DNA of 64,000 nt, taken from contig NZ_CP031115.1 in assembly GCF_003568865.1 (NCBI RefSeq), positions 620,001 through 684,000 of the forward strand, written 5' to 3'. The notes beneath the pieces were generated by a model. That model did no database searches and had not been told where the DNA came from. It was given only the letters and a program-made list of their open reading frames with translations. This document shows, piece by piece, positions 61,881 to 63,663 of the stretch. Source of the stretch: Rubrobacter indicoceani. GTDB lineage: Bacteria; Actinomycetota; Rubrobacteria; Rubrobacterales; Rubrobacteraceae. Numbering within the stretch: the stretch's first letter is position 1; the number at the start of each line of letters is the position of its first letter. The position numbers and the translations under genes are program-made.

Positions 61881-62591
61881 GTGATCGCCCGCTACGCCGG
61901 TGGAACTTCCGGTGCGGGTCGAGCCGCTCGCTCGGGTGCGATGGTGGTGGTCGTTGATGCCTACCGGGCGAGCGCGACCATCGCCGTGCTTGTCTCGAAG
62001 GGGGCGAGCGTCATACCGCTCCTCTCCGTCGAAGCGGCCCGCACTTATCCGGCCGATTTCCGGGTCGGAGAACGCGACAGGGCAAAGGTAGCTGGCTTTG
62101 ACTTCGGCAACACCCCGACGGGCATCCTGCGCGAAAAAGACTTCCCGCCCGGCTCGACCTGCGCCATGACCACCACGAACGGAACCCGCATCGTTGAGGC
62201 CGGGGCGGGCAGCCCCGTCATACTCGCAGGGTCTTTCGCCAACGCCGGAACCGTTGCGCAAGACATACTTCTGCGCTTCGAGCGAGGTGAATCATCTGAG
62301 GTTTCGGTCGTGGGATGCGGCTGGCGCGGCAGACGAACCTCCGAAGACGAAGCGGCTTCGGCGGAGAGCCTCTCCCGCTTGAGAGGCTCGGGCATCCCGC
62401 GCCGGGCAGAGAAAGTCGTGGCCGACCACGAAAAAAGGCCCCCGGGCTCGCTCAGAAACAACGACGCCGCCCGACGGTTAAAGAGCCCCGGATACGAAAA
62501 AGACCTCTACTTCTGCCTCGAAAAAGACATCGTCCCCGTGGCTCCGGTTCTGGTAGGGGGAGCCTTCGTGGCATACGATGACCGCCGTTGA
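61881..62591 (+). CDS. 2-phosphosulfolactate phosphatase family (ComB-like)
   Basis: 236 residues. VVVVDAYRASATIAVLVSKGA, GFDFGNTPTG and TTTNGTRIVEA are the ComB-family landmarks. In methanogens ComB makes sulfolactate for coenzyme M; bacterial homologues often lack the other coenzyme M genes, as here, so another phosphate monoester may be the substrate. Metal-dependent, cytosolic. GTG start with no clear SD; other starts were not resolved. Confidence 0.83.
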   Translation: MIARYAGGTSGAGRAARSGAMVVVVDAYRASATIAVLVSKGASVIPLLSVEAARTYPADFRVGERDRAKVAGFDFGNTPTGILREKDFPPGSTCAMTTTNGTRIVEAGAGSPVILAGSFANAGTVAQDILLRFERGESSEVSVVGCGWRGRRTSEDEAASAESLSRLRGSGIPRRAEKVVADHEKRPPGSLRNNDAARRLKSPGYEKDLYFCLEKDIVPVAPVLVGGAFVAYDDRR

Positions 62592-62645: not shown

Positions 62646-62674
62646 TTGACAGTGTATCCGGGGGGAATTACTCT
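62646..62674 (+). promoter_or_regulatory. sigma-70 promoter of the small-protein gene
   Basis: Perfect TTGACA, a 17-base spacer and TACTCT. The clearest promoter in the window; leader about 97 bases. Confidence 0.75.
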
Positions 62675-62777
62675 GGATTCAGATCGAGCGAAGCAAACGT
62701 TACAAGCTCACCTGCAGAGTTACAAGGTAGGGCGGACGCAAGCGGAGCCACTCCGATCACGAAAGGAGGTGGAAGAC

Positions 62778-62978
62778 ATGACCATGACCATCAATCACGA
62801 GAAGGTTCGGGAGTACACTCGCGAAGACGTGGACAAGGCCATTGACGTTATAGAGCGTCACCTTGAGAAGGAAGCCAGGACGCGCAACCTGCTCGATGAG
62901 CAGGCGATCATGCGTCCGAAGGACCTGTGCAAGCAGCAGGGCCTCGACATGGTTTCCGAACTGCGCGGGATGGCCTGA
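62778..62978 (+). CDS. 66-residue protein of unknown function
   Basis: Helical, charged, soluble (TMTINHEKVREYTREDVDKA onward), with one Cys in MRPKDLCKQQGLD. AAAGGAGGT is seven to eight bases before ATG, the strongest Shine-Dalgarno in the window, so the longer frame from 62646 is not used. With a consensus promoter, high expression is likely. No family recognised. Followed by a hairpin and a structured RNA candidate. Confidence 0.7.
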   Translation: MTMTINHEKVREYTREDVDKAIDVIERHLEKEARTRNLLDEQAIMRPKDLCKQQGLDMVSELRGMA

Positions 62979-63008: not shown

Positions 63009-63152
63009 AACGCAGCAGGTAAGCCTGTGAAGGGGGATGCACAGTATTCTGCATCCCGAGGCCGCTAGCCGCTACCGGCAGCGACCCGACAGGCTGTTCA
63101 TCCCCCTTCAGCTAGGCTGCTAGAGGGCCGGGTTTTCCCGGCTCTCTTTTTC
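63009..63152 (+). ncRNA. structured RNA candidate with competing folds and terminator
   Basis: GAAGGGGGATG (63029-63039) is complementary to CATCCCCCTTC (63099-63109), 11 perfect pairs. The same stretch, GGGATGCA (63034-63041), pairs with TGCATCCC (63050-63057) as a local eight-pair hairpin, so the two exclude each other. AGCCTGT (63022-63028) also pairs with ACAGGCT (63089-63095). A terminator closes it. No ORF with coding pattern. Known class not recognised; it may be the 3' part of the small-gene transcript or a separate RNA, or a regulator of what follows. Confidence 0.5.
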
Positions 63153-63154
63153 GT
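63121..63154 (+). terminator. intrinsic terminator of the structured RNA
   Basis: AGAGGGCCGGG, TTTT loop, CCCGGCTCTCT, then TTTTCG. One bulged G in the left arm. Confidence 0.88.
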
Positions 63155-63310
63155 GTGTTTTTCTCACCTTCTACGTTTTTGCGGCCGGGTTCGGGCGAGG
63201 GTATTTCCCGGCTAGCGCGGGTACATCCGCAGTCACCACGTGCCCGAGAACTGCAGGAGACTACAGATCATGGGCCAGAAACCAACCGTGAGACGAGACG
63301 GAGATCAGAG

Positions 63311-63663
63311 ATGGGAGACCTGTGGAGCGAGAAGGACGTGCCTCAGAGAGTGCGGGTCTACTGGAAAACGCTTATAAGCAAAGGTTCGACCGCTGGCGAG
63401 AACCTCACCCCGGGCGTCGGTTGCATCCCCCGGCGAGGCGCTGCGCGAGCACCGGCACAGCCAGGAGGAGATCTACCTGGTGCTGCAAGGACGCGGGTTG
63501 ATCCGGGTCGGAGACGAGGAGTTGAACGTCGGGGCCGGATCAGCGGTCTTTACCGGGCGACGCGCTACATTACTGTGAGAACACAGGTGTGGCGGATCTG
63601 CAGGTGGCCTACGTCTTCCCGGCGGATTTCTTTGATGGGGTCGAGTACGTTTGCGAGAACTGA
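63311..63663 (+). pseudogene. cupin-domain gene broken by two frameshifts
   Basis: Three in-order pieces of one cupin are read in different frames: MGDLWSEKDVPQRVRVYWKT to NLTPGVGCIP, then EHRHSQEEIYLVLQGRGLIRVGDEELNVGAGSAVF, then HYCENTGVADLQVAYVFPADFF to a TGA at 63661. The metal-type His pattern is present. The first break is at the C run 63427-63431, where one base seems missing; the second at about 63552-63556, where two seem missing. Intact it would be about 118 residues. Read errors in C/G runs are an alternative. Confidence 0.7.

Follow-up and report, generated by a model that had tools for sequence, protein, structure and literature searches.

Our comparative analysis revealed a real, previously uncatalogued and strongly conserved RNA in the genome of Rubrobacter indicoceani (3.08 Mb) that is specific to the Rubrobacteraceae. 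Positions refer to the window, the whole 64,000-nt stretch that was analyzed (NZ_CP031115.1, positions 620,001-684,000, forward strand), in which the flagged segment occupies 63009-63154. A covariance model built for the RNA identified it as a single copy in 34 of 40 Rubrobacteraceae genomes, and a search with the same model under strict filters did not find it in about 358 further Actinomycetota genomes. Little can be read from the six absences, which fit assembly gaps: four of these genomes also lack the neighboring hemQ, and in the remaining two the contig stops before the locus (in G381, one of these two, the conserved 5'-UTR motif lies only 36 bases from the contig end). By blastn, the RNA was present in 22 of 25 family genomes, R. 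indicoceani included, and in 0 of 16 others; the small protein encoded next to it occurred in the same 22 genomes at 84-95% identity. In the named collection, where all close relatives were Rubrobacter, Rubrobacteraceae or actinobacterial metagenome-assembled genomes, each of 26 protein-bearing loci carried the RNA just downstream (26/26). The original prediction had recognized no known class, and an Rfam search of the segment likewise gave no match; across the whole window, nothing exceeded the threshold except a nearby tRNA-Ser, and relaxing E to as much as 10 added chance matches only. Library searches on Rubrobacter small RNA or 6S RNA yielded no description of this RNA, nor a described small RNA in the Rubrobacteraceae. 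Its identity as a conserved structured RNA of a 3' UTR is very probable. Our preferred reading, to which we assign a probability of roughly 40%, is that it forms the structured 3'-terminal domain of a one-gene Rubrobacteraceae transcript and acts as a 3'-UTR-derived regulatory RNA.

The transcription unit is made up of the following features:

62646-62674, + strand: sigma-70 promoter TTGACA-N17-TACTCT of the transcription unit, conserved in homologs.
62686-62709, + strand: 5'-UTR hairpin GAGC...GCTC with the loop AAACGTTACAAGC at 62695-62707; the stem covaries and the loop is conserved.
62762-62770, + strand: Shine-Dalgarno AAAGGAGGT of the small gene, read from the sequence and conserved in homologs.
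62778-62978, + strand: gene of the 66-aa orphan protein, 84-95% identical across the Rubrobacteraceae.
63017-63124, + strand: conserved structured RNA, the extent of covariance model R1 (79.7 bits, E 7e-24).
63122-63153, + strand: intrinsic terminator with U tract (hairpin 63122-63147).

The placement of the segment 3' of a small gene, its terminal intrinsic terminator and its lack of a coding pattern all proved to be as originally described; the ATG-started 28-codon frame within the RNA of the window is lost in relatives, and a coding function was rejected. Upstream of the small ORF, the TTGACA-N17-TAnnCT pattern is kept across the aligned homologs, an AGGAGG site precedes the ORF, and a GC-rich hairpin followed by a T run also lies downstream in the homologs read. 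The gene order is fixed as hemQ-AKR-(RlpA)-comB-ORF-RNA, often with tRNA-Ser(gct) after the RNA, and this fixed synteny, together with the finding of no viral contigs, ruled out a mobile element. The upstream gene at 61881-62591 encodes a divergent 2-phosphosulfolactate phosphatase (ComB-like), and its synteny with hemQ and the aldo/keto reductase is conserved. On the 3' side of the terminator, at 63300-63660, inspection by eye pointed to a decayed coding sequence of cupin type (HRHSQEEIYLVLQGRG...), whose frame contains no intact ORF, and one relative (L066) showed a weak match in the same place.

A generic promoter scan returned no match for the RNA itself, and the same scan also missed the conserved upstream promoter, whose copy in the window scores under its threshold. 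A separate promoter serving the RNA nevertheless seems unlikely, because synonymous diversity in the last codons of the small ORF is normal (0.459 versus 0.476 expected) and the RNA follows the ORF at a variable distance, 6-48 nt across all loci examined. The simplest view is that the small-protein mRNA has this RNA as its 3' UTR. Bacterial small RNAs derived from 3' UTRs form a general class whose members follow an ORF, show no promoter signal of their own and end in the intrinsic terminator of the gene. The Rubrobacter RNA resembles this class in lying directly after the ORF at the 3' end of the gene and in ending in the gene's terminator, and it probably also lacks a promoter signal of its own; what sets it apart is a long hairpin that dominates the fold, with arms that are paired and nearly fixed, and its linkage to an orphan small protein. 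The transcript as a whole is unusual, running from a conserved sigma-70 promoter through a covarying 5'-UTR hairpin and a near-invariant small protein to the RNA.

Folding of the 146-nt segment gave -78.4 kcal/mol compared with -53.1 kcal/mol for dinucleotide shuffles (z -6.3, none of 200 as good), and the segment without the terminator still deviated from its shuffles (z -4.4). The native fold is a long-range hairpin, AGCCUAUGAAGGGGGAUGCACAGU / GCUGUYCAUCCCCCUUCA..UAGGCU, with three parts:

63022-63045, + strand: 5' arm of the long stem, AGCCUGUGAAGGGGGAUGCACAGU, from folding, the covariance model and the alignment.
63046-63092, + strand: variable apical region, with 40-72 nt between the fixed points of the arms in relatives.
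63093-63118, + strand: 3' arm of the long stem, GCUGUUCAUCCCCCUUCAGCUAGGCU, whose paired core CUGUYCAUCCCCCUUC is constant in 33 sequences save for the unpaired Y.

The 11 perfect pairs originally proposed between 63029-63039 and 63099-63109 belong to this stem, in which 98% of the cells are paired across 33 distinct family sequences. The alignment was fitted to the structure of the covariance model, so that pair counts lean towards the model. The compensatory changes in relatives on which the original prediction had staked itself are present in the outer long-stem pairs only, at 6-116, 8-114 and 13-108 (alignment columns), with 8 cells compared with 1.5 in shuffles; 13 of the 16 inner pairs showed no variation. 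A C.C or C.U mismatch within the stem is kept in all sequences, and the sequence of the inner arms is more constant than pairing would require. The terminator and the apical region, by comparison, vary, and a separate, complete terminator comes after the RNA. Both observations speak against the RNA being only an elaborate terminator or stabilizer of the 3' end with no regulatory role, a reading that we consider highly improbable even though the RNA ends the transcript and is very stable.

Two clades have changes in the paired core: one carries A for G at column 17, the other C for G at column 17 and A for G at column 21. These substitutions always fell in the 5' arm and each left an uncompensated mismatch, while the 3' arm CUGUYCAUCCCCCUUC remained unchanged. 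Because uncompensated changes occur only in the 5' arm, the C-rich 3' strand may be the constrained sequence, although the asymmetry, with about three core substitution events behind it, suggests this only weakly.

The original prediction had also described two mutually exclusive folds and read them as bistability. The alternative is a local hairpin, H1:

63034-63057, + strand: alternative local hairpin H1, 63034-63041 paired with 63050-63057; not covarying.

Its eight pairs are present, and it does exclude the long stem; the two do not balance. With the 3' arm held unpaired, the fold was worse by 12.7-28.6 kcal/mol (median 24), and on this advantage of the long stem, 13-29 kcal/mol when rounded, equilibrium bistability was rejected. 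Prefix folding placed H1 as the predicted fold from 63050, in every tested prefix ending between 63050 and 63104, and the long stem took over at 63106. Covariation lent no support to conservation of H1 as a fold, since none was found in the family alignment, and the sequences in which H1 outperformed dinucleotide shuffles (p<0.05) numbered 8 of 32, mostly from the clade of the window and a few others. H1 is genuine in the window, as a folding intermediate and not as one state of a balanced switch; the prefix folds indicate that it is likely a kinetic intermediate at least in the lineage of the window.

A true two-state switch, in which a ligand or protein would shift the RNA between H1 (with a freed C-rich strand and a three-way junction) and the long stem, is unlikely in our assessment. 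The strength of H1 in the window's clade and some other sequences (GCAUCCC, GCGUCCCC, GCAUCUUCC) is in its favor, as is the complementarity between the apical segment and the 5' arm, for which the mean duplex energy in representatives was -10.3 compared with -7.4 kcal/mol in shuffles; these sequences are related, however, and the same C run can also pair with GGG in the apical stem, which confounds the comparison. The three tests of conserved bistability, by covariation, by single-sequence shuffles and by this complementarity, thus gave partial support at most. Against such a switch stand the lack of covariation and the few individually significant sequences, the energetic advantage of the long stem and a terminator that is independent of both folds. 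The riboswitch suggestion was dropped as well, since the RNA comes after the only gene of its unit, neither upstream of nor within a regulated gene, and the terminator hairpin (63122-63147) lies outside both folds. The seven pairs between AGCCTGT (63022-63028) and ACAGGCT (63089-63095), from which a pseudoknot had been proposed, are present in the window. The pseudoknot itself was unsupported: the pairing did not covary, one of its pairs is broken in 24 of 33 sequences, and alongside H1 it would amount to a regular outer stem instead of a pseudoknot.

Comparison with 6S and 6C/B11 RNA gave no match. The covariance model of 6S RNA (RF00013) matched nothing in the whole genome or the window. It has been noted that Actinobacteria lack a recognized 6S RNA and that Ms1 is flanked by a HAD hydrolase and an oxidoreductase (PMC9130861), a neighborhood different from that of the RNA described here. 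A polymerase-binding RNA of the 6S/Ms1 type, standing in for 6S within the Rubrobacteraceae, would suit this gap in the genome, and the long interrupted hairpin is loosely 6S-like. We nonetheless regard this as very unlikely, as we do the original suggestion of a 6S-like RNA: the RNA measures about 85-118 nt, whereas 6S has 187 positions (about 180-200 nt), and its continuous stem with one mismatch lacks the large central bubble that 6S carries between a closing stem and a terminal stem. Its location in a 3' UTR, its gene neighborhood and the lack of an Rfam match likewise set it apart from 6S and Ms1. The 6C/B11 model (RF01066) had no match in any of 41 genomes, R. indicoceani among them, and the Corynebacterium glutamicum control was positive. 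Binding of C-rich small RNA elements to G-rich ribosome-binding sites is an established mode, known from mycobacterial B11/6C (PMC10470900). The Rubrobacter RNA is similarly actinobacterial and has a C-rich stretch that could bind such sites, but 6C has two hairpins with C-rich open loops, whereas here a single C5 stretch is paired on the 3' arm.

The small protein is 64-66 aa long in the family, with a virtually invariant core (IERHLEKEARTRNLLDEQAIMRPKDLCKQQGLDMV), and had no sequence relative in Pfam, NCBIfam, PHROGs or the PDB. A single-sequence structure model predicted two helices at low confidence (pLDDT 73), and a fold search with this model gave zero matches. Distant paralogues (31-38% identity) occur within the family, elsewhere in several genomes (L048-L054), and the RNA was not found in the 200 nt downstream of the three that were read. 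Between the promoter and the AGGAGG site, the 5'-UTR hairpin has two stem pairs with double changes (21 sequences), and the small-protein gene is essentially the one place in each genome where its loop AAAYGUUACAARC occurs. The region 62686-62709 constitutes a second conserved RNA element, and several relatives might form other pairings close to the Shine-Dalgarno sequence.

These features bear on the main rival to our reading, a cis-acting, protein-bound autoregulatory element of the 3' UTR, which is a real possibility that falls well short of even odds. The long stem with its fixed mismatch would then be a site of protein binding or processing and, jointly with the hairpin of the 5' UTR, would determine how stable the small-protein mRNA is and how much it yields; the protein acting there might be the small protein or else an RNase specific for double strands. 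Such an element would agree with the fixation of both arms, including the C.C/C.U mismatch, and with the strict one-to-one linkage to the small gene, and the near-uniqueness of the 5'-UTR loop motif to this transcript suggests autoregulation. It fits less well with the small protein, for which no family, a roughly neutral charge and a low-confidence two-helix model lend RNA binding no support, and a stem serving stability alone would need no fixed sequence. In addition, the 5'-UTR loop paired with the 3' RNA no better than shuffled sequences did, and the same was true of the 3' arm against the start region of its own mRNA.

In the regulatory RNA reading that we prefer, the RNA would be transcribed as the 3' UTR of the mRNA for the small protein, and the nascent chain would pass through H1 during transcription before snapping into the long stem. 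Its functional sequence would be the C-rich 3' strand CUGUCCAUCCCCCUUC, which, once the stem is opened, would pair with G-rich ribosome-binding regions. By analogy, this strand might work as the C-rich loops do in mycobacterial 6C/B11; its pairing in the stable fold, in contrast to those open loops, argues against this. The trans-acting step is proposed tentatively, at somewhat less than an even chance. A search for a conserved target with an extended 17-mer complement, allowing two mismatches over 40 genomes, recovered the RNA itself and scattered chance sites; similar matches in other genomes were few, with no convincing common start-region setting. Near-perfect sites in the R. indicoceani genome lay near start codons in 5 of 28 cases compared with 3% of random positions, an enrichment as for any Shine-Dalgarno-like string. 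A PhaC-like gene (PHA synthase, named by eye) has a perfect 11-nt complement of the C-rich arm 19 nt ahead of its start codon (L114 1501-1511, G000:C1:2162901). This site, the sole perfect 11-nt match at a start region, was rejected as a candidate target because it is not conserved in relatives.

A bolder proposal would join these parts into a self-contained three-part regulatory module consisting of the 5'-UTR hairpin with its locus-specific loop, the orphan protein and a kinetically controlled 3' RNA, in which the passage from H1 to the long stem would briefly expose the C-rich strand and the small protein or another factor would trap the active form. We rate it a long shot, and to our knowledge a kinetically controlled RNA-protein pair of this kind has no counterpart. 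What remained of the original prediction is a conserved, non-coding structured RNA followed by a terminator and belonging to no known class; the balanced bistability, the pseudoknot, the riboswitch and the 6S assignment were not supported. The finding adds an RNA family not catalogued before, with one copy per genome, to a deep-branching family of radiation- and desiccation-tolerant bacteria. As the RNA strictly accompanies an orphan protein that is conserved to the same degree, the locus is a clear single target for genetics, and both the asymmetry of the arms and the co-transcriptional fold are directly testable.
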